A stretch of 64,000 nt of DNA from Polaribacter sp. Hel_I_88 (GTDB taxonomy: Bacteria; Bacteroidota; Bacteroidia; Flavobacteriales; Flavobacteriaceae): assembly GCF_000687935.1 (NCBI RefSeq), contig NZ_JHZZ01000001.1:3420001-3484000 (forward strand), in the 5' to 3' direction. The translations under genes were made by a program, and so were the position numbers. The notes beneath the pieces were generated by a model. That model worked only from the letters and a program-made list of their open reading frames with translations. It searched no databases and was not told where the DNA came from. Of the stretch, positions 1,273 through 18,240 are shown in pieces. Positions within the stretch are counted from its first letter, which is position 1; every line of letters begins with the position of its first letter.

Positions 1273-4047
1273 CTATTCGCTTACTGATGTTGATGTTAAG
1301 GCAATAGGAATTACAATTCCTGAGCCAGCCTTTCTTAATAATGTTGCTGCTATGGTAAAAGTCCATCTAGAATCTACAGCATCATCAAACAAAAATACAG
1401 GTTTATTTGGAACATTACCATCTATTTGAAAAACACCATCTAAATTTTTACATTGATGATAACTATTCTCTTGCTCTTTTTGTGGACTTGTATCCTTTGC
1501 TTTTATTATTAAAGGAATAAAAGGAATTCCTAATTTTGCCGCTAATCTTTTAGCAAAATTTGGAACTAATAAAGGAGCTCTTAAAGATGGTATACAAGTT
1601 AACCATTCTGGTAAAGGATCAGGACGCCATCTTTTAATAATCATATCACACATTGCATCTACCAATTCATCTCTAAAATGACCTTGATGCTTATCATCTG
1701 CAACCATTTTACCCCAACCTGCATCACCCCACCTAGATAACACTTTTCCTTTTTCCGCTTGTAAATTTTTAGGTAAATTGCCTCTCCATTGATATTTTGG
1801 CAATGCATTTCTTGCTATTTGTTTTCTAGGTTCAATATCAAACTCAGAATGTTTTAAATATATAGAAGCTTTTAACACGTTACTTTGAGAGGCTGTATTT
1901 GGTAAAATATTTTCATTTAAACAATTTGCACAATGACCACAAGGTTTGACATTCTCATCATCTAATACATTTTGCAAAAATAGCATTAAACAATCTTTTG
2001 ATAGTATATAGTTTTGCACAATTTGCCACTCTAATAACCGTTGATTTGTTAATCTTGCAACCTTATCAGTATCCATGGAATAGTTAATGGCAGTTCTTTG
2101 CCATTGGGTACCAATTTTAACAATTGGTGAAGGAACCTCAACACTCAAGTATTTTATTGTTTTGGTAATCTGGCTATATTTTACATTTAAAAGTTCTTGT
2201 AATTTAGGTATAGACAAACCTTCGTGATCCTCAATAACTTCTAAAATTTTCTCTACTGTTTCTTCTGGAGGAAATGCTCCTTCTCTAAAATAGCGATGTA
2301 CATCCGCATCTTCTTGTCCTGATAATAAAATACCGTAAGCACTTTTTATTGCACGACCTGCACGACCAACTTGCTGGTAATAACCGATAATAGATCCTGG
2401 AGCCTGAAAGTGAATCACAAAATTTAAATCGGGTTTATCATATCCCATTCCTAAAGCAGTAGAAGCAACTAAAACTTTAATATCATTATTATACAAAGAA
2501 TCCTCTAAAAACTCCCTATATTCAGTTGAGCTATCAAAATTATCATGTTTAATATCTGAATAATAAGCAGCAGCATCAATATTGCAATCATTTAGCCATT
2601 GTGTAACAGTTCTAGCATCACGTTTTGTTAAAACATATACAATACCACTACCTGCCATATTAGGAATATTCTCTTTTAACCAAGCTAAACGTGATGCCTG
2701 GTCTTGCAACTTAATATTCTGTAGTTTTAAACTTGCTCTTGTTAATCCGCCTCTAATTGTTTTAATTCCTCCTAACTGTTCTTCAATATCATTTACTACT
2801 CTATCATTAGCTGTTGCTGTTGTTGCTAAAATTGGCATACCACTAGGCATCGCTTTTAAAATACCTACAATACGTCTATAGTCTGGTCTAAAATCATGAC
2901 CCCAATCTGAAATACAATGTGCTTCATCTACAACAAACAAACCAATTTTATCTGCAATTGGAAACAGAATTTCATCCATAAATCGATCATTAGCTAAACG
3001 TTCTGGTGAAATTAATAGAGTATCTATATTATTTTTTAAAACTTCATTTTGAATAGCTTTCCAATCATCAAAATTTGTTGAATTTATAGAAACGGCTTTA
3101 AGACCTAAACGTTCTGCTGCTTCAATTTGGTTACGCATTAAGGCTAATAATGGTGAAATAATTATAGTTGGTCCTCTACCTTGTTCTCTTAATATTTTGC
3201 TACTTATAAAATAAACTAAACTTTTACCCCAACCTGTTCGTTGAATAACTAACAATTTTTCTTTATTTATAGTAAGTTTTTCAATGGCTTCCCATTGACC
3301 TTCTCTAAATGTTGCAGTAGGCATATTTATTGACCTACGTAACATATTCAATGCTCTTTCTTTACTCATAGAAGTCTTTTTTGTAATAATCCTTTTTTTT
3401 GGTTTTTTTACTTTTTTTGAAACATCTTTTTGAACTGCTTTTTTTAAAGGCTTGGAGATATTTTTGTTCTCTTTATTTAATTGAACTATTTCTTTTTTTT
3501 CATTTATCTTAATTGGTTTTTTTAATCTTTCTAAATTACTTGAAAACTTTTCTGCTTCTAATTCTCTTAATTTTAATTTTTGCTCTTGCTGTTCAAAATA
3601 TGATAATTTTGCACCTTGCTTTTCGCACTTTTTCTCTGTAGTGGTTTTTATATTCTTTAAACTATTTCTTTCTTCTTCTTTAATTAATCTTTCTCTTTCA
3701 AGTTTTCTTCTTTTTAAGTTTTTTTCTTTTTGTTGTATTTTTCTTAATTTTAATTCTTCTATTCTTTTCTTTTTTAACGAGTAATCTAATGCTGCTTTAC
3801 TTTTTGAAAGCTCTTTTTCCTTTTCGTTTTTAGCCCTCCATTCTTGTAAATCTGCAACATTCTTCTCTTCTTTAGTTGGTTTCCTCAACTGAACATAATT
3901 TTCCTCTTTGGCTCTCTTTTTATCAATATTTTCTAATTCTTTATGAATTATTTCTTTTTGATTTTCTAATGAGTCAACACTTTTATTTTTTTTATCATCT
4001 TTTAGATTCTTTAATTTTTTTAGGATGTTAAATATATTTAGATTCAT
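1273..4047 (-). CDS. RecQ-type helicase fused to a ComF-like phosphoribosyltransferase
   Basis: 924 residues from the ATG at 4047; a TTG at 4077 would add ten residues. Residues 20-230 are extremely Lys/Glu rich and probably coiled coil, with no enzymatic motif. The helicase core follows: Walker A RTGWGKS near 270, DEAH near 374, motif [11 protein letters not shown] near 558, and a RecQ zinc cluster (CGHCANC) near 700. The last 110 residues resemble ComF-type PRTases, with [18 protein letters not shown] followed by a PRPP-loop-like [12 protein letters not shown]. RecQ enzymes are 3'-5' DNA helicases; RecQ-PRTase fusions exist in other phyla, as I recall. It lies 116 bp downstream of hsdS on the same strand and directly before the DprA-like gene, suggesting a defence-associated unit. 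Substrate and role are unknown. Confidence 0.88.
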
Positions 4048-4162
4048 TATTTCGAGAATTAGCTTTAAGATAAACAAACAAATGTTTGAAATAGAGACTT
4101 TTATAAATATCTTGTTATTATAACCTTGCTATTTTTTTAAATGTTGTTATCAACTACATTTT

Positions 4163-5887
4163 TTAGATTACCCCCTCAAAAACCTCCCGCAAAACACTCT
4201 GCATCATCATCTCACTATGCTCTTGGCTTTGTTCTACTTCTTGGGCTAAAGCATCACATAAACACATTAAAGCATTTACTTTTTCTACAATGGTTTTTTG
4301 TTCTTCTAGTGGTGGAAGTGAAATCAATAAGTCAGTGATATCTCCCATCTTCATATTAGGTTGTTGACTTTTTCCATCAAATTTTGATTTATAATAATTT
4401 AACACCTTGGGTGATTGTATAAATGAAAATATATAAGGATGATAAATTTCTTTTGTCATTGACCTAATTGATGCAACACGTTGATTTAATAAAGAGTTAT
4501 TATAAGCGGAAGGACAAATAGATATTTTCAAGCCATCTTTAATATATGGTCTTGTTAAAGCTAATATTAAATCTCCTTTTTTAATTAAATAATTAGGATG
4601 TAATTCATTAAAACCATCAGGTAAATAGTCATCAGTTTCGACAAAATTACGCACACCTGCATTTGTGATTTTAATACATTTTACTCCTCCTTTTTTATTA
4701 AAATCTCCACTTTTAAAACTAGCTCCAGCAATTATATCTGTAACAGTACCTAACCTACACCAAACCCAACCTTCAGGCAACTCATAAGGAATTTCATCTT
4801 TGGTAATTGGTGGTAAGGCTTTTTCCTTTTTTATTTTTTTGTCTGCAATAAGTTGTGCTTTCTCTTCTTGTATGCGCTTTAAGAGTTGGCTGGCATCTTC
4901 GGTATTAGGATTATTTGCTCGCCAATCTGCTGTGAGTTTTCCTTGTACTGCTAATTGTAAAACGGTTTCTCTTAATTTTTTAATGTTGGTGGTTTCATTA
5001 AAGAAACTTTTAAAATGGTCTTGTAAAAAAGTCCATTCTTGGTTTGCCTTATTGGCAGTGAGTTGGTGTAATGCAGACGTTACAAAATCTTCTTTTAAAC
5101 CAATACGCTCAACCGTTAATTGCTCTAATTGTGCTACTTCTTTAAAAAGGGTTTCTACTACTTTTACGATTTCTTTTTGTTCTTCTAGTGGTGGAAGACC
5201 AAAAACTTGAGTTCTTATTTTGACTCTAGATATATTTGGTTGTGCTCCACCTTCACCTTGATTGATAAAAGTATCTTTTAAACCTTTTAAAAGTAGATGC
5301 AAAAATAAACTAGTAATACAACTAAAAGGAGTACAAGCACAAACTGCCTGATTTGTTGTTCCTTTTACTTTTAATATTCCAGTTTTTCCAATAGTTGCTC
5401 CATACATAGCAATTAATACATCTCCAGGATTATTTAACCTAACAGATGTCTTTTCGAGAGCGAGTTCAGTAATTTTTTCCTTTGACTCATAATCCATAAC
5501 TGAATTATTAAGTTCTCCTGATTTAAACCAATTTATTTTTCCTCCATAAAATGATGAATTTGAACGTAAAGGGGTAGAACCAGCACCCCAATCACCAATT
5601 TCACCAAGTCTTACAGTTTCCCAATTATTAGGAAGGTTTGTAATTAATTCTTCCTTTTTAACTTTTGAAAGAAGTTTTTCTTTCTTAATTTTCTTCTCTT
5701 TAATTAAATTTTCTTTTTCAATTTTTATTTTCTTCAATAATTCAAAGGCAGGTTCAATATCCTTATTTTCTTCTCGCCAATTCGCAGTCAATTTCCCTTG
5801 TATTGCCAATTGTAAAATCAATCCTTTTAATTCTTTGGCATTTTTAGGACGAATGGTTAATTCTTTAAAGTGTTTTAGTAATTGCAT
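4163..5887 (-). CDS. hsdS: Type I restriction-modification specificity subunit HsdS
   Basis: 574 residues with the two-fold layout of HsdS. Each half begins with a conserved helix (LQLAIQGKLTANWR near residue 30, LQLAVQGKLTADWR near 310), then a Lys-rich coiled-coil spacer, then a variable target recognition domain (roughly 90-225 and 370-520). The segment LPPLEEQKxIV appears after both domains. HsdS picks the bipartite DNA target and holds HsdM and HsdR. Length is slightly above the usual 400-450 because both spacers are long. It follows hsdM on the same strand after a 61-bp gap holding a small palindrome. No frameshift is seen, so the system looks intact; the recognition sequence cannot be predicted from this. 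Confidence 0.95.
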   Translation of the reverse strand: MQLLKHFKELTIRPKNAKELKGLILQLAIQGKLTANWREENKDIEPAFELLKKIKIEKENLIKEKKIKKEKLLSKVKKEELITNLPNNWETVRLGEIGDWGAGSTPLRSNSSFYGGKINWFKSGELNNSVMDYESKEKITELALEKTSVRLNNPGDVLIAMYGATIGKTGILKVKGTTNQAVCACTPFSCITSLFLHLLLKGLKDTFINQGEGGAQPNISRVKIRTQVFGLPPLEEQKEIVKVVETLFKEVAQLEQLTVERIGLKEDFVTSALHQLTANKANQEWTFLQDHFKSFFNETTNIKKLRETVLQLAVQGKLTADWRANNPNTEDASQLLKRIQEEKAQLIADKKIKKEKALPPITKDEIPYELPEGWVWCRLGTVTDIIAGASFKSGDFNKKGGVKCIKITNAGVRNFVETDDYLPDGFNELHPNYLIKKGDLILALTRPYIKDGLKISICPSAYNNSLLNQRVASIRSMTKEIYHPYIFSFIQSPKVLNYYKSKFDGKSQQPNMKMGDITDLLISLPPLEEQKTIVEKVNALMCLCDALAQEVEQSQEHSEMMMQSVLREVFEGVI

Positions 5888-5904
5888 AGTATGTGATTGC
5901 CTTT

Positions 5905-5934
5905 ATGAGATGTCTCGACTGCGCTCGACATGAC
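5905..5934. repeat. Short palindromic element in the hsdM-hsdS gap
   Basis: A 30-bp GC-richer stretch with TGTCTCGAC and GCTCGACATGACA half-sites, partly self-complementary, sits between hsdM and hsdS. Elements of the form TCTCGACTGCGCTCGA are common dispersed repeats in flavobacterial genomes, from memory. It is unlike its AT-rich surroundings and may be an mRNA hairpin within the operon. Confidence 0.5.
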
Positions 5935-5948
5935 AATTAGAACTTTGA

Positions 5949-7379
5949 TTATTTTAAAGCTTCGGTTAATACATTGATTATTTCGTCTTGTATGCTAGAA
6001 ATTTTTTGTTCCGTAATTCTAAATTTTTCTAAAATTACTTCTGGGTTTTCTAACGTATCAGCTTCTTGGTGTGGGTTTTTAATATCAAGGTTGTAATTAC
6101 GTTTTTTAATATCTTCAATAGATACTTTCCAAGCGTATGCGTTCTCTTCCCTATTATTCCACCATTTTTTTTCTACATCAAACTCTTTAATATGAATCGG
6201 TTTGGTTTTGTTGTAGCTTTTTGCTCCTTTTGGGTATTGGTGTTCGTAATACCAAACTTCTTTGGTTGGTGTGCCTTTTTCAAAAAATAACAAGTTGGTT
6301 TTAATACCTGTGTATGGATTAAATACACCATTTGGTAAACGTACAATGGTATGTAGGTTACATTTGTCTAACAACTCTTCTTTTAGCCGTGTTTTCATGC
6401 CTTCGCCAAACAAGGTACCATCTGGTAATACAATAGCACAACGACCGTTATTTTTTAAGAGCTTCATAATTAAAGCTAAAAATAAATCGGCGGTTTCTTT
6501 GGTTCTGAATTTTTTAGGAAAATTGGTTTCTGTACCATCTTCTTCTACACCACCAAAAGGCGGATTAGACAAAATAATATCTAACTTGTCTTTGGCGCCC
6601 CAATCTGCATAGGGTTTGCTTAGTAAATTGTCTCTGCGAACTGCTGGCAAATCGAAACCGTGCAACATTAAATTGGTCGTACACAGCAAATGTGGCAATG
6701 GTTTTTTCTCGATACCTCTTATAGATTTTTGTAATATTTCTCTGTCTTTATGATCTTTTACTTGGTTTCGCATAAAATCGATACTACAGGTTAAAAAGCC
6801 TCCGGTACCCGATGCAGGATCTAAAATACTTTCGCCCAATTGTGGGTTGATCATATCTACCATAAACTGTGTTACGGCTCTTGGTGTGTAATATTCACCA
6901 GATGAACCTGCAGATTGTAAATCTTTTAAAATAGTTTCGTAAATATCATTAAACACATGACTTTCTTTTGAGTTGTTAAAGTCAATCTCGTTAATCACGT
7001 TAATTACTTGACGAAACAAAGTTCCGTTTTTCATGAAATTATACGTATCATCAAAAACAGAACGTATTATTTTAGCTTGCGGACTTATGGTAATGTCTAA
7101 TTCTTTTAAGGCAGGAAAAAGCTCGTTTTCTATAAACTCCATTAAAGCATCGCCTGTTAAACCCTCATCGTCAGCTGCCCAATTTTGCCATTTTAAGTGT
7201 TCTGGAATTGGCGATTGATAATCGTCTATGGTAATTTCCCATTCTTCTTCTTTATCCGCAAATATTTTCATAAACAGCATCCACACCATTTGTGAGATCC
7301 GTTGTGCATCTCCATCTACACCTGTGTCTTTGCGCATAATATCGCGTATACTTTTTATGTTGGTTGTTATGTTACTCAT
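5949..7379 (-). CDS. hsdM: Type I restriction-modification methyltransferase HsdM
   Basis: 476 residues. An N-terminal helical HsdM_N domain (about 1-130) precedes the N6-adenine methyltransferase domain. The SAM-binding motif DPASGTGGF is near residue 184 after GEYYTPRAV, and the catalytic motif NPPF is near 270. HsdM methylates adenine in the HsdS target and protects the chromosome; with HsdR and HsdS it forms the restriction complex. The start ATG shares one base with the hsdR stop (TAATG), indicating translational coupling. Length and motifs match the family, with no sign of decay. Confidence 0.97.
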   Translation of the reverse strand: MSNITTNIKSIRDIMRKDTGVDGDAQRISQMVWMLFMKIFADKEEEWEITIDDYQSPIPEHLKWQNWAADDEGLTGDALMEFIENELFPALKELDITISPQAKIIRSVFDDTYNFMKNGTLFRQVINVINEIDFNNSKESHVFNDIYETILKDLQSAGSSGEYYTPRAVTQFMVDMINPQLGESILDPASGTGGFLTCSIDFMRNQVKDHKDREILQKSIRGIEKKPLPHLLCTTNLMLHGFDLPAVRRDNLLSKPYADWGAKDKLDIILSNPPFGGVEEDGTETNFPKKFRTKETADLFLALIMKLLKNNGRCAIVLPDGTLFGEGMKTRLKEELLDKCNLHTIVRLPNGVFNPYTGIKTNLLFFEKGTPTKEVWYYEHQYPKGAKSYNKTKPIHIKEFDVEKKWWNNREENAYAWKVSIEDIKKRNYNLDIKNPHQEADTLENPEVILEKFRITEQKISSIQDEIINVLTEALK

Positions 7380-9748
7380 TAAGCTATATTGTATATTTCG
7401 TTTTCTAAATCTTTTATGGCTTGGTCAAAATCTTTCTTTTTACCAAAGGCTCTTACCAATTCAACAGGCGTTCCCATTTCTGTAAGCGGTTTTACTTTTA
7501 GTATTGCTCCTTGTTCTATAGAGGCAATGCCTTCTTTTTCGTATTTATCTAGCAGACTATAAAGTACTCTTTGTGCAGTAGCACTATACTTTGCAAAGTA
7601 ATTACGTTTTCGCACATTGTTTGCTCTTTCTTGTCTTGTTAATGGTGGTTGGTCATAAGCAATATGGCAAATTAAGTCGAATGCATCTAAATCTTGTCCA
7701 ACTTCTTCACGCAAGGCTTCTAGCAATACTCCATGTTCTGCCAACTCTTGTATGAGTTCTTCTTTCTTTTCAGAAGTATTCCATTTTTGGATAAAATCAT
7801 CTAAGGAAGCAAACTCTTTTTCAATATTTTTTTTGGAATATTCTTTTAAAGACTCTGTGATTAATTTGCCATCTTTTCCATAATATTGAACACGTTCATT
7901 AACTACGGTAACAGGAATTTGATTTACATAATACTTTCTAACAGTTTCTTCATCTTCATCAATATCAATATTGGGTTGCGTTGGTCTAAAGCCTCCTAAA
8001 CTTTTAGCTGACAAATCCTCTTGTTGGTCTTCAATTTCTTCGTCTGGCGGAATTACAGATTCCTCAATAGTCGGTTCGTAAATCTGAACAGGGTCTCCAT
8101 CAAAATCAGGTCTTGCAAAAATATTAGTGGCTTTTCTAAAGTCCATAATCGTAAAAAACACTTTTCCTTCTGCTTCTCTAATACGTGTTCCTCTACCAAT
8201 AATTTGTTTGAACTCGGTAACTGAATTGATATTTGATTCCAATACAATCAATTTTACCATTTTGGTATCAATACCTGTGGTTAGCATTTTTGATGTTGTG
8301 GCAATAACAGGAAATCGTTCTTCTACATCCGTAAAATTATCAAGTTCTTGTTTGCCTACTTCATCATCGCCAGTAATTTTAACACAGTAATTCCAGTGAT
8401 TTGCAACAAGATCTGCATTTTCATTAATTAATGCTTGTCGCATTCTATTGGCATGATCTATATCTACACAAAACACAATGGTTTTTGCATAACGATCTGT
8501 AGCTTTTAAATATTCGGTAATTTTTTTAGCGATTAATGCAGTACGTTCATCAATTGCTAAAGTTTTATCGTAATCTTTTAAATTGTAAATTCTATCTTCA
8601 ACCTCATTTCCATATTTATCTACCAAACCTGCTGTTGGTCGCCAACCTTCATCTACATTTGTGGAAATTCGGACTACTTTATACGGAGCTAAAAAACCAT
8701 CGTCAATTCCTTGTTTTAAAGAATACGTATACACAGGATCTCCAAAGTATTCCATATTAGAAACATCTTTTGTTTCCTTTGGTGTTGCTGTTAAGCCAAT
8801 TTGGGTTGCAGTCGTAAAATAATCCAAAACTGCCCTCCATGCAGAAGCCTCTGATGCAGAACCTCTATGGCATTCATCAATAACAATTAAATCAAAAAAA
8901 TCTGGACTAAACTCTTTATAGGCATTTTTATCTTCGTCTGTAGACGTTAATCCCTGATACAAGGCAAAATATATTTGATATGATTTATCAATCTTTCGGT
9001 TTTTAATGATATGCATAATATCATTACCAAAAGGAGAGAAATCGCCGTTTTTAGTTTGCGTTAATAATGCATTTCTATCAGCTAAAAATAAAATACGTTT
9101 TTTAATACCTGTTTTCCATAAGCGCCAAATAATATTAAAAGCGGTATAGGTTTTTCCTGTACCTGTTGCCATGACCAAGATAATTTTGTCTTGTCCTTTA
9201 GCGACTGCTTCTACAGTTCTGTTTACAGCATTTTGTTGATAGTATCTTGGTGTCATTCCACTATCATCCGCGTAATACTCTTTTTCTACAATCTCTTGTG
9301 CTTCTGGCGTTTCAATTTGAGTATACTTTAAATATTTTTTCCACAAGGTTTCAGGTGATGGAAAATGATTTAAAGAAAGTTCTTTTTCTAATTCGTTTGA
9401 TGTAGTTGTTTTATCATGAAACACAAAAGAATCTCCATTGGAAGTAAATACAAATGGAATTTGAAGAATCTCAGAATATTCTAAGGCTTGTTGCATACCA
9501 TGTCCAACAGGCTTTTTATTGTCTTTAGCTTCAATAATGGCAATAGGAATGTTGGATTTGTAATACAAAATATAATCTGCTCTTTTACTTTTACCTCTAG
9601 TGTACATTTTACCTTGTACAATGATTCTACCATCCGTAAAAGAAACTTCTTCTCTTACTTGAGTTCTCATATTCCAACCTGCTTTTTGTAAGGCAGGGTT
9701 TATAAATTTGGTGCAAATATCTCTTTCAGAAAGGTTTTTCTTATTCAT
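7379..9748 (-). CDS. hsdR: Type I restriction endonuclease subunit HsdR
   Basis: 789 residues. The N-terminal PD-(D/E)xK-type nuclease is seen as RADYILYY then IAIIEAKD near residue 71. The SF2 translocase has Walker A ATGTGKT near 192, motif II DECH near 289, motif III LTATP, and motif VI QIIGRGTRIRE. The C-terminal third is the EcoEI-type helical region. HsdR translocates DNA and cuts when complexes collide. It is the first gene of the minus-strand restriction operon; its promoter must lie in the repeat-bearing region above 9749. All catalytic motifs are present, so restriction activity is expected. Confidence 0.97.
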   Translation of the reverse strand: MNKKNLSERDICTKFINPALQKAGWNMRTQVREEVSFTDGRIIVQGKMYTRGKSKRADYILYYKSNIPIAIIEAKDNKKPVGHGMQQALEYSEILQIPFVFTSNGDSFVFHDKTTTSNELEKELSLNHFPSPETLWKKYLKYTQIETPEAQEIVEKEYYADDSGMTPRYYQQNAVNRTVEAVAKGQDKIILVMATGTGKTYTAFNIIWRLWKTGIKKRILFLADRNALLTQTKNGDFSPFGNDIMHIIKNRKIDKSYQIYFALYQGLTSTDEDKNAYKEFSPDFFDLIVIDECHRGSASEASAWRAVLDYFTTATQIGLTATPKETKDVSNMEYFGDPVYTYSLKQGIDDGFLAPYKVVRISTNVDEGWRPTAGLVDKYGNEVEDRIYNLKDYDKTLAIDERTALIAKKITEYLKATDRYAKTIVFCVDIDHANRMRQALINENADLVANHWNYCVKITGDDEVGKQELDNFTDVEERFPVIATTSKMLTTGIDTKMVKLIVLESNINSVTEFKQIIGRGTRIREAEGKVFFTIMDFRKATNIFARPDFDGDPVQIYEPTIEESVIPPDEEIEDQQEDLSAKSLGGFRPTQPNIDIDEDEETVRKYYVNQIPVTVVNERVQYYGKDGKLITESLKEYSKKNIEKEFASLDDFIQKWNTSEKKEELIQELAEHGVLLEALREEVGQDLDAFDLICHIAYDQPPLTRQERANNVRKRNYFAKYSATAQRVLYSLLDKYEKEGIASIEQGAILKVKPLTEMGTPVELVRAFGKKKDFDQAIKDLENEIYNIA

Positions 9749-9937: not shown

Positions 9938-10000
9938 TGTGAGACCTATCTTCTGTTGAAATGTCAAAACTGGGTGGCTGCATTAGAATTACACTACTGG
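9938..10000. repeat. 63-bp direct repeat, copy 1
   Basis: Begins TGTGAGACCTATCTTC and ends ACACTACTGG. It aligns without gaps over 63 bp to 10032-10094, with scattered substitutions. The inner part (TGTTGAAATGTCAAAA) resembles the dispersed GTCGAAATGACA elements seen in flavobacteria. It lies upstream of hsdR in a stretch of about 750 bp with no gene. Confidence 0.6.
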
Positions 10001-10031: not shown

Positions 10032-10094
10032 TGTGAGATTTCTCCTTTGTCGAAATGACAAAATTGGGTGGAAATATTGGAATGACACAACTGG
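10032..10094. repeat. 63-bp direct repeat, copy 2
   Basis: Begins TGTGAGATTTCTCC and ends ACACAACTGG, the same length as the copy at 9938-10000. A shorter third trace, GGCACAACTG, follows at about 10110. The spacing of 94 bp between starts suggests local tandem duplication of an older dispersed element. No ORF crosses it. Confidence 0.6.
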
Positions 10095-10250
10095 TTGGTA
10101 GCATTAACATGGCACAACTGAAAGTTCTATATGTACTATCTACCTAAAAATTTCTACAAAAATCAATCCTACTTCCCTCCTAATGCGCTCCTAGTCTCCT
10201 CCGAGTTTTCTCCCAAAAACGTCCATTTTTTAAAAATACACCCCTAGCCC

Positions 10251-10285
10251 ACTCGAAGAAAACCCGAATAAGACTCGAAGAAAAC
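10251..10285. repeat. Pair of 13-bp direct repeats before the 10-bp array
   Basis: ACTCGAAGAAAAC occurs at 10251-10263 and again at 10273-10285, a 22-bp step. It lies directly before the 10-bp periodic array and may be part of the same leader of the DUF6266 gene. Function unknown. Confidence 0.5.
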
Positions 10286-10305
10286 AACCCAAAATGTTCG
10301 TTTTT

Positions 10306-10435
10306 GTGTCATTGTGTGTCAAGGTGTGCCAAGGTGTTTCAGGATGTTTCATCTTGTGTCATGCTGTGTCAGGCTGTGTCAAACTGTGTCAATTCGTTTC
10401 AGAAGGTTTCAATACGTGTCAACCTGTGTCAAGTG
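10306..10435. repeat. 13-unit direct repeat with exact 10-bp period (GTGTCA)
   Basis: GT(G/T)TC or one-base variants recur at 10306, 10316, 10326 and so on to 10426 with no spacing error; the next base is A in every unit. The other four bases of each unit vary (often ending in T). The array is G/T rich on the plus strand, against an AT-rich background, and ends 64 bp before the DUF6266 start. A 10-bp step places every conserved pentamer on about the same face of the helix, so a cooperative binding site or an intrinsically curved or single-strand-prone leader is plausible. The overlapping plus-strand ORF is only a by-product. Confidence 0.85.
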
Positions 10436-10498
10436 TTTGTTTGTTAGATTTTTAGCACTTAGCTTTGACCATTATAAACCATTAAAAACATATACATT

Positions 10499-11140
10499 AT
10501 GGCAACATTTGAAAAAGGCATACTTGGCGGATTTTCTGGCAAAGTAGGCAACGTAGTAGGCTCTCGATGGAGAGGTAAAAATGTAATGCGTAGTTTACCT
10601 CAGCGTGGTAACTACACACCTTCTGACAAACAAGAAGAGCAGCGCGAAAAATTTAAAACCGTAATTGGTTTTTTAAGTCCGCTGACAGACATTTTAAATC
10701 TCTATTTTGGGAAAACACAGGGCGATAAATCGCGTTATAATTTGGCAACTTCTTATCATTTAAAAAATGCGGTTGAAAGTACACCTTTGGGCATGGCCAT
10801 GGAATATGCCAAAGTATTGATTAGTAAAGGCGATTTACGAGGTATTGATGGCGGTACTGTTGCTGCAGCTGCAGCGCAAGTCCTTAATTTTACGTGGCAA
10901 GACAATAGTGGCCAAGGAAAAGCAACTGCCACAGATATGTTTATGGTAGTGGTATATGCACCCGATTTAGGGATGTATTACACCAATGTAGCCGTAGCTA
11001 CCAGAGATGCTTCCTCAGCAAGTGTTACTTTGCCCAATTATATGGCAAGTTTTGAAGTAGAGGTTTGGGCTTCTTTTAGCAAGCCTTCAACCAATTATGC
11101 AGCAAATAGTACCTATTTAGGTGCGGTTACTGTATTGTAA
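10499..11140 (+). CDS. DUF6266 family protein
   Basis: 213 residues from ATG at 10499. The N terminus, GILGGFSGKVGNVVGSRWRG then KNVMRSLPQR, is the hallmark of DUF6266, a family I know only from Bacteroidota and without assigned function. There is no signal peptide or membrane segment; the second half is rich in Ala, Thr and Val with likely beta structure. Base composition is clearly more GC-rich than neighbouring genes, which suggests transfer or separate history. The gene is isolated: hsdR runs away upstream and a small HTH gene faces it downstream. Directly upstream lies the 13-unit 10-bp repeat, which may control it. Confidence 0.85.
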   Translation: MATFEKGILGGFSGKVGNVVGSRWRGKNVMRSLPQRGNYTPSDKQEEQREKFKTVIGFLSPLTDILNLYFGKTQGDKSRYNLATSYHLKNAVESTPLGMAMEYAKVLISKGDLRGIDGGTVAAAAAQVLNFTWQDNSGQGKATATDMFMVVVYAPDLGMYYTNVAVATRDASSASVTLPNYMASFEVEVWASFSKPSTNYAANSTYLGAVTVL

Positions 11141-11432: not shown

Positions 11433-11693
11433 TTACTCCTTATTAAAGTTGCGGATGCTTTTTAAGAGTAGCATTTTATTCAATAAGCTTTTTGGAAACA
11501 TAGGGCTACAGCCTATTTTAACATCTATAATTTGGTGAGTTTTCCTGAGCCGAAACAGGGTGCTTCTACTAATGTTTAGATGTTTTAAGACTTCTTCTGT
11601 AGTAAGCCATTCTTCGTTTTTGATTAATTTTGCATCAATCTTTACATCTTTGTAAATGGATGTTGGTTTGGGTTGTTTTTTCTTTTTTTTCAT
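11433..11693 (-). CDS. Small helix-turn-helix (excisionase-type) DNA-binding protein
   Basis: 86 residues: a Lys-rich N terminus, then EEWLTTEEVLKHLNISRSTL, the winged-helix entry typical of MerR/excisionase-like HTH_17 proteins, then FRLRKTHQIIDVKIG forming the recognition helix and wing. Such proteins act as recombination directionality factors or small regulators on mobile elements. No integrase is nearby, so it could be a remnant of an element. Its 3' end faces the DUF6266 gene across 290 bp in which I see no gene or clear signal. Confidence 0.75.
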   Translation of the reverse strand: MKKKKKQPKPTSIYKDVKIDAKLIKNEEWLTTEEVLKHLNISRSTLFRLRKTHQIIDVKIGCSPMFPKSLLNKMLLLKSIRNFNKE

Positions 11694-11867
11694 ACTAGCT
11701 TTTTTTTAAGTTACATATATCTCTAACATAGAGTATATTACCTGCAATATAGTCATTTTTTTGTAACATGGTTTTTGGGAAGCTGGTTTGACTTTTTTAA
11801 TATGGTATTTGGATGTGCTTACTCTTGTGTGGGGGTGCTTTGTACTTCGTAATGATGGGTGTTGTTT

Positions 11868-12053
11868 TTTTTTCTTTGTTCTTTTCCATTGATGAAAAGA
11901 ACCAAAAATCTAGACTTATTTTAATTTTCTTGAATTCTACAAGCTATTACACTATCGTGTCCAGACCGTTCCACTACGTTGCACTCTTTGGACACTTAGC
12001 CGTTTCATACCTTTTGAATTGCTACGAAAATTAAAAATATGTCGGGTTGAGAT
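11868..12053. repeat. R2 element, copy a
   Basis: About 185 bp. A hairpin GTTCTTTTC/GAAAAGAAC (11878-11902, 7-nt loop CATTGAT) is followed by AAAATCTAGACTTATTTTAA, then a second inverted pair GTGTCCA/TGGACAC (11957-11995) and the tail TTTGAATTGCTACGAAAATT. Nearly the same sequence recurs at 12358, 14346 and 17611. Confidence 0.85.
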
Positions 12054-12357
12054 TGTAACTAAGCTTTTTACCTCTTAATTTTTTAAATACTCGTCATTGC
12101 GAGGCTTTTTTAGCCGCGGCAATCTGTTGGTGGTTACTTTCTGGTGTTTGTGTGGTTAACTGGGTGTGCTTACTGTTGTGTGCTTACTCGTGCGTAGGGT
12201 TGTTTCGTACCTCGCAATGACAGGCGTTATTATAAATTTAATAATGTTTTTAACAAAACTACCTGGATGCTCGTCATTGCGAGGCTTTTTCAGCCGCGGC
12301 AATCTGTTGGTTGTTACTTTCTGCTGTTTGTGTGGTTGATTGGTTTTGGTATACTTT

Positions 12358-12545
12358 TTTCTTTGTTCTTTTCCATTGATGAAAAGAACCAAAAATCTAG
12401 ACTTATTTTAATTTGCTTGAATTCTACAAGCTATTACACTACCGTGTCCAGACCGTTCCACTGCGTTGCACTCTTTGGACACTTAGCCGTTTCATACCTT
12501 TTGAATTACTACGAAAATTAAAAGTATGTCGGGTTGAGATTTAGA
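12358..12545. repeat. R2 element, copy b (inside an R1 unit)
   Basis: Same order of parts as copy a. It is preceded by an R1 left half (from 12269) and followed by a short R1 right end (AGCAATGACGGGC near 12561), so it appears inserted in, or to have replaced, the middle of an R1 unit. Confidence 0.85.
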
Positions 12546-13524
12546 TTATATAAACTTTACAGCAATGACGGGCTTTATTATAAATTCAATAATGTTTTTA
12601 ACAAAACTACCTGGATAATCGTCATTGCGAGGCTTTTTTAGCCGCGGCAATCTGTTGGTGGTTACTTTCTGGTGTTTGTGTGGTTGATTGGGTGTGCTTA
12701 CTGTTGTGTGCTTACTCTTGCGTGGGGTTGCTTCGTACCTCGCAATGACGGGCGTCGTTTTCACTAACAATAGCTTTTACTAACAAAAATAATTAAATAC
12801 TCGTCATTGCGAGGCTTTTTCAGCCGCGGCAATCTGTTGGTGGTTACTTTCTGGTGTTTGTGTGTTTGACTGGGGGTAGTTAACTAGGTGTGATTACTGT
12901 TGGTTGCTTACTCTTGCGCTTCTTTTTACAACATAGGCACATAGGGTATATCGTTTCTTATAAGGCGTTATTATAAATTCAATAATGTTTTTAACAAAAC
13001 TACCTGAATACTCCTCATTGTAAGGCTTTTTTAGCCGCGGCAATCTGTTAGTGGTTACTTTCTGGTGTTTGTGTGTTTTACTGGGTGTACTCACTGTTGT
13101 GTGCTTACTCTTGCATGGGATTGCCACGTCGTACCTCCTCGCAATGACAGATTCGGGTGGAGTTAGCAATGTGTGCTTACTCCCTCGTGGGGTTGCTTCG
13201 TACCTCGCAATGACGGCGTCGTTTTCACTAACAATAGCTTTTCCTTACAAAACTTCTTGAATACTCGTCATTGCGAGGCTTTTTCAGCCGTGGCAATCTG
13301 TTGGTTGTTACTTTCTGGTGTTTGTATGGTTCACTGTGTGTGCTTACTGTTGTGTAAATACTCTTGTGTAAGTTTGCCGCTTTTGCTTCATATTCTCGCA
13401 ACAGGCTACACCTCCTTGCGATAACAGATTCAAGTAAAATTAAATAAAGTTGATAATGGTATTAAAACAAAAGGGAAATTGTAAATATATAAAATGGCAG
13501 TAGTTATTAAGAAAAGGTACCTAG

Positions 13525-13606
13525 TGGGGAGAGCAGGATTCGAACCTGCGAAGACGTAGTCAACGGAGTTACAGTCCGTCCTCGTTGGCCGCTTGAGTAT
13601 CTCCCC
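13525..13606 (-). tRNA. tRNA-Tyr (GTA)
   Basis: Read on the minus strand, an acceptor stem GGGGAGA (13606-13600) pairs with TCTCCCC (13532-13526) with discriminator A. The anticodon loop holds CTGTAACTC between arms ACGGA and TCCGT, giving anticodon GTA. The T arm GCAGG-TTCGAATC-CTGC is perfect. A long variable arm makes it a type II tRNA of 82 nt, as expected for bacterial tRNA-Tyr. CCA is not encoded. It stands alone between R1 repeats; 13607-13890 holds no gene and presumably its promoter. Confidence 0.97.
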
Positions 13607-13890
13607 TTTGGTAAATATATAATGTTTATGAACGTACCTTTTTTTATACCTTTTTTGTTTTTATCAGACCAATATTGGGCTTTATAATTACAACTTCTTG
13701 ATTATGAACTAAATGATTTCGTTCCTTAAAATCCGTTGGTCTTTGTGATAAAAAACATTCTTTTTCTCAAAAAGGTTTGCGAATATACAAAGTTTTTAGA
13801 AATGTCCTAAACATCATAAAATTATTTTTTAGTTTTTTTCCGATGCTTTATGTAAGCATTTGTGTACTAGTTACTAACAAAAAAACTTAA

Positions 13891-14588
13891 ATACTTGTCA
13901 TTGCAAGGCTTTATTAGTTAAAGTAATATGTTTGGTAAAAGCTTTTTGCTGTTTGTGTGTTTAACTGGGTGTGCTCACTGTTGTTTGTTTACTCAAACGT
14001 GGGGTTGCTTCGTACCTCGCAATGACGAGCGTAGACTTTACTAACATTGAATTTCACTAACAAAACTACCTGAATACTTGTCATTGCGAGGCTTTTTTTA
14101 GCCGCGGCAATCTGTTGGTAAAGGCTTTCTGCTGTTTGTGTGGTATACTGGGTGTGCTTACTGTTGTTTGCTTACTCAAACGTGGGTTTGCTTCGTACCT
14201 CGCAATGACGAGCGTAGACTTTACTAACATTGAATTTCACTAACAAAACTACCTGAATACTCGTCATTGCAAGGCTTTTTCAGCCGCGGCAATCTGTTAG
14301 TTGTTAAATTCTGGTGTTTGTGTGTTTTACTGGGTGTGGTTTACTTTTTTCTTTGTTCTTTTCCATTGATGAAAAGAACCAAAAATCTAGACTTATTTTA
14401 ATTTTCTTGAATTCTACAAGCTATTACACTATCGTGTCCAGACCGTTACACTGCGTTTCACTCTTTGGACACTTAGCCGTTTCATACCTTTTGAATTGCT
14501 ACGAAAATTAAAAGTATGTCGGGTTTAAGATTTAGATTAAAGTTTGCCATATTTGCTTCGTATTCTCGCAACAGGCTACACCTTCTCG
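13891..14588. repeat. R1 repeat block 2
   Basis: Three R1 units start near 13891, 14075 and 14257, steps of 184 and 182 bp. The spacer TTTACTAACATTGAATTTC between consecutive units is conserved, so this is a true tandem array, not scattered insertions. The third unit is split by R2 copy c; its right half resumes near 14542 with TTGCTTCGTATTCTCGCAAC, a variant also seen at 13385. Confidence 0.88.
14346..14533. repeat. R2 element, copy c (inside an R1 unit)
   Basis: Same hairpin GTTCTTTTC/GAAAAGAAC and GTGTCCA/TGGACAC pair as copies a and b, with a few substitutions in the second loop. An R1 left half precedes it and an R1 right half follows. Confidence 0.85.
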
Positions 14589-14712
14589 CAATAAAGGTTG
14601 TTATTATAAATTCAACAATGTTTTTTAACGATACTTCCTCTAAAATTTATCGCTAATCTAAAAATACTACTGCCCATATTTTAATCTTTAGCTATCATTA
14701 AAAAAACAGCAT

Positions 14713-17039: not shown

Positions 17040-18240
17040 TGCGTGCTTTATTAGGTGTTCTGAATCTTGCGTGGGTTTGCTTTTGCTTCGTATTTAGCAA
17101 TAGGCTATACCTTGTAATGACAGACGTAATCTTAAAAAAAACTTATCACTAACAAAACTACTTAAAGACTAGTTATTGCAAGGCTTTATTAGCCAAAGTA
17201 ATCTATTGGTGAAGGCTTTCTGCTGTTTATGTGTTTTACTGGGTGTGCTTACTGTTGTTTGCTTACTCAAACGTGGGTTTGCTTTGTACCTCGCAATGAC
17301 AAGCGTAGACTTTACAAACATTGAATTTCACTAACAAAACTACCTGAATACTTGTCATTGCAAGGCTTTTTTAGCCTCGGCAATCTGTTTGGTTAAAGCT
17401 TTTTGCTGTTTGTGTGTTTTACTGGGAGTGCTTACTGTTGGTTGCTTACTCAAACGTGGGTTTGCTTCGTACCTCGCAATGACGGGCGTAGACTATATTA
17501 GCATTGGATTTTCACTAACAAAACTATTTGGATACTCGTCATTGCGAGGCTTTTTCAGCCGCGGCAATCTGTTAGTTAAGGCTTTTTGCTGTTTGTCCAC
17601 TCTTTGTTATTTGCTTTATTCTTTTCTTTTTTCCATTGATGAAAAAAGAAACAAAAAAATCTAGACTTATTTTAATTTGCTTGAATTCTACAAGCTATTA
17701 CACTATCGTGTCCAGACCGTTCCACTGCGTTGCACTCTTTGGACACTTAGCCGTTTCATACCCTTTGAATTGCTACGAAAATTAAAAGTATGTCAGGTTG
17801 AGATTGTAACTAAGCTTTTTACCTCTTAACTTTTTTAAATACTCGTCATTGCAAGGCTTTTTCAGCCGTGGCAATCTGTTGGTTGTTACTTTCTGCTGTT
17901 TGTGTGTTTTACTGGGTTTGGTTGACTGGGTGTTCTCACTGTTGTGTGCTTACTCTTACGTGGGTTTGCTTCGTACCTCGCAATGACGGGCGTAGACTTT
18001 ACTAACATTGAATTTCACTAACAAAACTACCTGAATACTCGTCATTGCGAGGCTTTTTCAGCCGCGTCAATCTGTTGGTGAAGGCTTTCTGCTATTTGTG
18101 TGTTTGACTGGGTGTGCTTACAGTTGTATGGTTGCTCTTACGTGGGTTTGCTTCGTACCTCGCAATGACGGGCGCTAACAAAACTACCTATATACTCGAC
18201 ATTGCAAGGCTTTTTCAGCCTTGTCAATCTGTTGGTTAAA
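17040..18240. repeat. R1 repeat block 3
   Basis: R1 units start near 17166, 17348, 17532, 17839, 18033 and 18193, the last truncated, after a right-half-only copy at 17040-17131. Steps are 182, 184 and about 190 bp, again with the spacer TTTCACTAACAAAACTACCT. The TCATTGCGAGGC/CCTCGCAATGAC ends are conserved. The block fills the stretch between the SDR operon and the minus-strand gene at 18548; no gene is credible. Confidence 0.88.
17611..17811. repeat. R2 element, copy d, with altered hairpin arms
   Basis: Same element as copies a-c, but the first hairpin is TTTCTTTTTTC/GAAAAAAGAAA (17623-17651). Both arms are longer and the terminal G-C pair has become T-A, while the loop CATTGAT is unchanged. 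This coordinated change supports a real RNA or single-strand hairpin. It follows an R1 left half from 17532. Confidence 0.85.

Follow-up and report, generated by a model that had tools for sequence, protein, structure and literature searches.

In the genome of Polaribacter sp. Hel_I_88 a gene of the DUF6266 family is preceded by a row of short motifs spaced exactly 10 bp apart, and this arrangement raises the question of what the motifs do in front of the gene and which protein, if any, occupies them. The window (the whole stretch of 64,000 nucleotides that was analysed) holds the array at positions 10306–10435 of the forward strand, in the form of 13 units of GT(G/T)(T/C)CA-N4. The hexamers start at 10306, 10316 and so on up to 10426, with a step of exactly 10 and zero phase slip. 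A first-pass annotation of this DNA had reported the hexamer GT(G/T)TCA every 10 bp, thirteen times; this is confirmed, with the strict form present in 12 of the 13 units and GTGCCA in the third. Hexamer positions 1, 2, 5 and 6 (G, T, C and A) are invariant in all 13 units, whereas all four spacer positions vary, the last one being T in 9 of 13. The view that the constraint lies on the hexamer core and its 10-bp phase, leaving the spacers free, is thereby borne out. Strict hexamers form a longest run of 10 and GT(G/T)(T/C)CA hexamers one of 13, whereas no more than 2 hexamers of the latter type followed one another when the 64-kb window was resampled 40 times with a second-order Markov model. 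The best self-match segment at lag 10 scores 57, a value that does not exceed 19 in the resampled sequences, and 10 is the best of all lags from 5 to 60 in the window. Across the 4.0-Mb genome, three successive GTKTCAN4 units give eight overlapping matches, all inside this array, while the reversed-pattern control gives none.

The gene behind the array (10499–11140, forward strand, 213 residues) is a DUF6266 gene, as annotated (PF19781, 138.1 bits, gathering cut-off 23.4). Its AlphaFold2 model, searched with Foldseek, comprises a Gly-rich N-terminus of low confidence, two helices and a C-terminal FnIII/Ig-like domain, a predicted fold that does not identify a function. The idea of a phage, plasmid or known-defence gene was rejected for DUF6266 on the searches made: tblastn gives no match in phage and plasmid collections, viral contigs contain one relative with 35% identity, the best PHROG match has an E-value of 0.25, and PADLOC matches neither DUF6266 nor the small HTH protein described below. 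In the open-licence PMC literature no mention of DUF6266, no description of 10-bp tandem arrays upstream of genes in Flavobacteriaceae and no paper on Polaribacter intergenic repeats was found. A genome scan finds 30 relatives in named contigs, the best 81% identical and most of them in Flavobacteriaceae (Wenyingzhuangia, Polaribacter and others), and searches with the PF19781 profile are positive for 28 of the 120 family genomes and for 17 of the 58 genus genomes. Once identical proteins and the fragment L059 had been set aside, 79 DUF6266 loci, some with truncated genes, were left, which fall into the window's clade (48) and a second clade (31). In the window's clade the upstream DNA repeats the same layout, with a conserved block to the left (the left block), a 10-bp array and a short promoter region. 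The array unit differs by locus (GTGTCA, GGTCA, GGGACA, GGTCCA or TGCA-type), with CA at a constant position in the slot. The first-pass annotation had named a lack of arrays before other DUF6266 genes as a refutation of its proposal; arrays of like register are found there, so that its proposal survives for the window's clade, but it does not extend to the second clade, where 0 of 31 loci score as an array.

The second clade has features of its own. In 15 of its 31 loci (e.g. L039, L042 and L050), at least two GCAA-like motifs stand exactly 10 bp apart before DUF6266, possibly a short version of a like arrangement. As for the gene upstream, the tests made at three loci (L042, L050 and L068) identify it as DUF6943; an assignment as RteC proved wrong. 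Identical DUF6266 proteins occur in L042, L043, L044, L098 and L099, that is, in five genomes of four genera, which points to recent transfer or shared contamination.

In the window the left block occupies 10190–10311 (forward strand; profile match 86.9 bits, E 2.2e-24). It is an inverted repeat of ~11-bp units around a conserved core, AAAACGTCCATTTTTTAAAAATACA, and matches its own reverse complement with 40 bits. The right arm (10251–10285, forward strand) consists of three direct 11-bp copies, ACTCGAAGAAA / ACCCGAATAAG / ACTCGAAGAAA, which are detected by Tandem Repeats Finder (period 11, 3.2 copies) and aligned in 36 loci. A left block with the conserved A/T core is present in 45 of the 48 loci of the window's clade, and its start coincides with the start of the homology block in blastn comparisons between loci. 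Conservation runs from ~10190 to the DUF6266 stop and again from ~11470, the second block reaching 11761–11776 in nine loci (L009, L010, L012, L013, L014, L110, L113, L116 and L118) and ending earlier in the others. Its right edge lies in the region upstream of a convergent HTH gene (11694–11767, reverse strand), which contains a short palindrome, CTCTA..TAGAG, noted by eye. The module found across Flavobacteriaceae combines the left block and its 10-bp array with a promoter of the Bacteroidota type, DUF6266 and, in convergent orientation, a small HTH_17 gene. Outside the homology blocks the flanks match in repeats only, apart from hsdR, ~2.3 kb upstream, which is shared by L031 and L033. The surroundings in the window are themselves repetitive: a 63-bp repeat in two diverged, 76% identical copies (9938–10000 and 10032–10094) lies just upstream of the element, and dense repeats at 11800–14700 and 17146–17596 have related stretches in relatives; 183-bp tandem units at 13873–14338 and 17146–17596 contain TTGCAAGGCTTTTTTAGCC...GGCAATCTG.

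The array ends at 10435, directly before the first base of a TTTG box (10436–10439, forward strand), whose first base lies exactly 10 bp beyond that of the last hexamer. The sequence TAGCTTTG, of the form TAnnTTTG, follows 20 bp further on (10460–10467, forward strand). Both boxes of a Bacteroidota sigma-A promoter are therefore found in the window as TTTG-N20-TAGCTTTG, at -33 and -7 of a predicted transcription start near 10472. For F. psychrophilum, PMC9723704 places TAnnTTTG at -12 to -5. For Bacteroides, PMC7366714 gives a TTTG near -33 whose spacing varies; it also describes the -33 box as not found globally in Flavobacterium johnsoniae, a point that weighs against the reading preferred below. 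The register was assessed in 41 of the 48 loci of the window's clade, the window's own included; outside this set are L018, L034 and L038, which have no left block, and L065, L066, L067 and L115, which have a left block but no array or another one. Promoters were searched as TTTG-N(19–21)-TAnnTTTG in the 100 bp before the start codon, without use of the array. In 76% of the 41 loci the promoter score lies above the 95th percentile obtained with shuffled sequence, and the spacer is 20 bp in 37 of 41, although scoring included no spacer preference.

Relative to the TTTG of these promoters, the triplet TCA is counted 305 times in phase 0, compared with 18, 8, 5, 4, 4, 3, 1, 1 and 0 times in the nine other phases. 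Among 16 representatives with less than 75% identity the numbers are 102 in phase 0 and 0–10 elsewhere, and control triplets are low in all phases (TGA 0–9; ACT, the reversed triplet, 0–10). The in-phase frequencies at -10, -20 and so on to -130 lie between 0.41 and 0.78, and the register does not drift. A measure that ignores the array agrees with this: the distance from the 11-bp repeats of the left block to the ATG is periodic at 9.9–10.0 bp (R 0.66, p ~1e-8, a p-value inflated by the relatedness of the loci) in 43 of 45 loci, no repeats being found in L026 and L067. For other periods, the full set of 43 distances gives R of 0.38 at 9, 0.47 at 10.5, 0.33 at 11 and 0.45 at 12. Reduced to 28 distinct values, the distances give p 5e-4 at a period of 10.0 and 0.17 at 10.5, with R of 0.52 at 10, 0.14 at 9 and 0.35 at 12. 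It is evident that the array is real, conserved across relatives and locked to a predicted promoter.

The phase lock of TCA to TTTG, together with the 10.0-bp periodicity, places the array in the DNA upstream of a predicted promoter, and it is thus neither a leader RNA nor a set of decayed long repeats. Decay from a longer unit had been named in the first-pass annotation as the case against its own proposal. Tandem Repeats Finder does score periods of 20 and 30 bp for the array, as such an origin would allow, but both are multiples of 10, the best period in the window is 10, and loci of different genera keep one phase relative to the promoter. The alternative suggestion of a structured G/T leader is not supported, given the position upstream of the promoter, and the RNA reading was rejected on structural grounds as well: the RNAalifold consensus of 36 left blocks contains 0 pairs, and Rfam returns no family, only two sub-threshold microRNA models. 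Because the promoter-locked register is kept across the 16 diverged representatives, a functionless array, either as decayed tandem copies of a longer unit or as a repeated leader RNA, is highly improbable. The suggestion of cooperative protein binding along one face of the DNA fares better in its first half. Cooperative protein binding to DNA is the best reading of the array, but 'one face' holds just approximately, because the period is 10.0 bp and that of relaxed B-DNA 10.5 bp, so that 13 units would drift around the helix by about half a turn.

The proposed binder of the array is the product of the convergent gene at 11433–11693 (reverse strand), a protein of 86 residues assigned by profile and fold matches to the HTH_17 class (excisionase/BldC-like). 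It scores 26.0 bits against HTH_17 (PF12728), just below the gathering cut-off of 27, which two orthologues exceed with 41.7 and 45.6 bits. An HTH_17 gene lies convergently downstream of DUF6266 in 36 of the 48 loci of the window's clade and in none of the 31 of the other clade, most of which carry ~1.5 kb downstream. An HTH_17 gene is next door to 23 of 28 strong arrays, and three of the five remaining ones (L117, L120 and L121) are additional copies whose genome carries the HTH gene at another place. Among solved structures the HTH profile is matched best by BldC (6ama, E 0.0016). The AlphaFold2 model contains one wHTH (mean pLDDT 83); its best PDB matches include 6ama and 6amk, with BldC-smeA as the best fold match (Foldseek probability 1.00, with a weak E of 0.02) and RdfS also listed. 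As in BldC, the predicted fold consists of one MerR-like wHTH domain and includes neither a dimerisation nor an effector domain. Excisionase models match the protein below their cut-offs and excisionase PHROGs match it weakly. The NCBIfam HTH model of MAD1, the regulator of the methylation-associated defence system MADS, also matches far below its cut-off of 80, with 17 bits for the window's protein and 32–33 for two orthologues. MADS and the present element both sit near type I-like restriction genes, but DUF6266 is not known to occur in MADS.

Two groups of characterised proteins indicate how a protein with such a BldC-like predicted fold might occupy the array. PMC5859096 describes BldC as binding direct repeats of 9 bp in the form of head-to-tail multimers, four of them on smeA, one helical turn apart. 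Likewise, PMC11963761 describes RdfS of ICEMlSymR7A as forming superhelical filaments and controlling promoters, and groups it with the wHTH excisionases lambda Xis and P2 Cox as HTH_17-class proteins whose head-to-tail superhelical filaments regulate promoters and excision. The BldC matches and the head-to-tail or filamentous binding of BldC and RdfS make the HTH protein the likely occupant of the array. The likeness to the Streptomyces protein at its whiI and smeA-sffA operators would comprise both the small MerR-like wHTH-only protein and a directional head-to-tail binding to direct repeats that vary in number and lie roughly one helical turn from each other. The differences are also clear. 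BldC sites are 9 bp long, two to four in number and AT-rich, whereas the units here are 10 bp long, have an NCA core and end on the -33 box; the longest arrays have 13–20 occupied slots, a rough count that runs past the left block in some loci (e.g. L014, L021 and L089). Since the period is 10.0 and not the 9 bp of a BldC site per protomer, the claim made here concerns a BldC-like mode of action and not membership of the family. The wHTH excisionases, for their part, serve an integrase and an att site, and no integrase gene is present in the homology block of this element. No paper on an excisionase with direct repeats and cooperative head-to-tail activation of transcription was found in the open-licence PMC literature.

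The most likely mechanism is therefore a BldC-like nucleoprotein filament controlling DUF6266; the reading of the array as a promoter-proximal operator on which a filament of an HTH_17-class wHTH protein switches the DUF6266 promoter has a probability of roughly 0.55. The small wHTH protein, most likely the convergent protein itself, would bind the units head to tail and probably cooperatively, with one protomer per 10 bp. The filament would start at the left block, reach the -33 box and switch the predicted promoter, which is presumably in use. Since the array adjoins the core promoter and leaves it uncovered, activation would be more probable than repression. A single case agrees with the convergent protein as the binder: in G405, which has no HTH of the element's type, the DUF6266 copy L115 has a left block and no array, and a solo array comprises 4 units, against 6 in its orthologue in G397.

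Several observations do not fit easily with the convergent protein as the binder. In an HTH alignment search of 34 genomes, the element-type HTH is found with at least 78 bits in 18, nothing scores between 51.4 and 78, and other HTH_17 paralogues at 21–51 bits are common. In two of the 18 (G040 and G180) the matched stretch holds a stop codon. Copies of block plus array also exist in four genomes without an HTH of this type (G024, G110, G162 and G319). Three of these (G110, G162 and G319) have arrays but no DUF6266 at all; G024 gives no match in the search for the element-type HTH, yet carries two solo arrays with 13 in-phase units. In such genomes either another protein binds or the arrays are leftovers or copies of a mobile repeat. 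Furthermore, HTH_17 genes lie upstream of DUF6266 in 10 of the 31 loci of the clade without the array, and G442 has one element-type HTH and three copies (L112, L117 and L121) with near-identical left blocks and different array units (GGGTCA, GGTCCA and ATGTCA; GGGTCAATTA, GGTCCACAGA and ATGTCAAGTA), which seem to have been replaced faster than their flanks. Residues of the recognition helix track the array unit loosely across loci: most GTGTCA arrays are accompanied by an S-R-S helix, and three clear GG-type arrays by a helix of the non-R kind. A specificity code between helix and unit was rejected, as L013 breaks the rule and ancestry confounds the comparison.

A different binder in the same promoter-proximal role, be it a host regulator, another HTH_17 paralogue or DUF6266 itself, would account for the arrays in genomes without the element-type HTH and would have candidates in the common paralogues. 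The N-terminus of DUF6266 is conserved and has several Lys/Arg positions in a 41-sequence alignment. Nevertheless, such a binder is unlikely: the HTH_17 gene is the only other gene in most array loci (36 of 48), and hsd genes, the next commonest neighbours, occur in 6 or 7 of 21 regions. DUF6266 as a DNA-binder is not favoured, as the confident part of its model is FnIII/Ig-like and contains no recognised DNA-binding fold.

In addition, arrays are found apart from DUF6266. In 397 genomes of the family, (GTGTCAN4)3 occurs at 15 distinct sites, 7 of which precede DUF6266 and 8 of which do not. The link to DUF6266 on which the first-pass annotation focused thus holds for many arrays but is not exclusive. 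At 36 places outside the known DUF6266 loci, chosen by hand with a sequence-only profile of the left block and including some weak matches, four or more in-phase units are present at 17 and no more than three at the other 19, in a count made without a control; L253 and L254 belong to both these 36 places and the 15 array sites. A relaxed search for two TCA units plus promoter in the 397 genomes yields 18 matches, spread over 17 genomes, of which we judge about half to be chance; with reversed-control matches in 6 genomes, it is too loose for counting. Beside one solo array (L136:11001–11756, G180), a 251-residue protein shows, by eye, a DUF6266-like N-terminal pattern, GIIKLKGTIGDISFY..., and has no Pfam match. 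Dispersed intergenic hairpins that resemble the left block by eye and lack an array (L221–L224 and L226 in G115, L234 in G024) constitute a REP-like repeat family.

These copies allow the left block and array to be read as the protein-binding end of a dispersed, possibly mobile repeat, with promoter control as a secondary matter. DUF6266 and HTH_17 would then form a gene-bearing version and the solo copies gene-less derivatives, like the MITEs of transposons. Besides the solo copies just described, signs of turnover are consistent with this. G442 has four DUF6266 copies, two of them truncated, and L247 is a copy with an in-frame stop by eye. One solo array lies in an intergenic region shared by G397 and G405; the marker gene of this site is present in 54 of 58 genomes, and of 30 relatives examined the other 28 have no left block within 700 bp of the end of this gene. 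Moreover, 10 of 66 DUF6266 places lie within 10 kb of HsdM, against 0.58 expected for uniform placement with contig breaks ignored, two genomes giving two each. The window itself carries, to the left of the element (1273–9748), a PsyrT-like DEAD helicase (PADLOC 1049 bits) and a complete type I set of hsdS, hsdM and hsdR. This nearness to HsdM and the hsd genes of the window suggest defence-island traffic.

The marks expected of a mobile element are, however, scarce. The homology block contains no transposase and, according to blastn between loci, no third gene. An IS-type integrase gene (rve) lies nearby in only 4 of 21 regions (L127, L129, L133 and L139), and no precise empty site, target-site duplication or recombinase was found at the sites compared. 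The inverted repeat is confined to the left end of the element, and the left-block profile detects no inverted copy at the right end, either in the 20-kb regions or in the window; L125 has a second, direct copy of the left block ~0.9 kb downstream. Finally, the solo copies mostly lack a promoter, the clearest in-register exceptions being L254 and L255, with L085 and L091 (where an oxidoreductase-like gene, by eye, follows the array) as further cases, whereas the gene-bearing copies keep the promoter in register. A repeat in which promoter control is secondary is accordingly rather doubtful, and the filament-controlled operator is preferred. More tentatively, one may think of a portable regulatory element of Flavobacteriaceae: the filament might nucleate on the inverted 11-bp block and grow in exact 10-bp steps as far as the -33 box, array length might set the output of the promoter, and the element might move, or be copied, among defence islands. 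Arrays without genes would then be left behind in some places, and in one (G245) the element stands directly before another gene (oxidoreductase-like by eye), with a register-matched promoter.

Plasmid parC/ParR systems also use protein-binding iteron arrays of direct repeats at about one helical turn, but the array described here is chromosomal and locked to a predicted promoter. Few bacterial operators are known in which twelve or more similar sites keep perfect register with a contact site of RNA polymerase. What sets this arrangement apart from known operators of its kind is its 10.0-bp lattice, the number of its sites and the lock to the -33 box. Should the array be coated by a BldC-like protein, the loci would constitute a natural length-graded series of up to ~20 units (a rough count) across species, which would show how filament length tunes a promoter. 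The array also provides an experimental handle on DUF6266, a family enriched near type I restriction genes.
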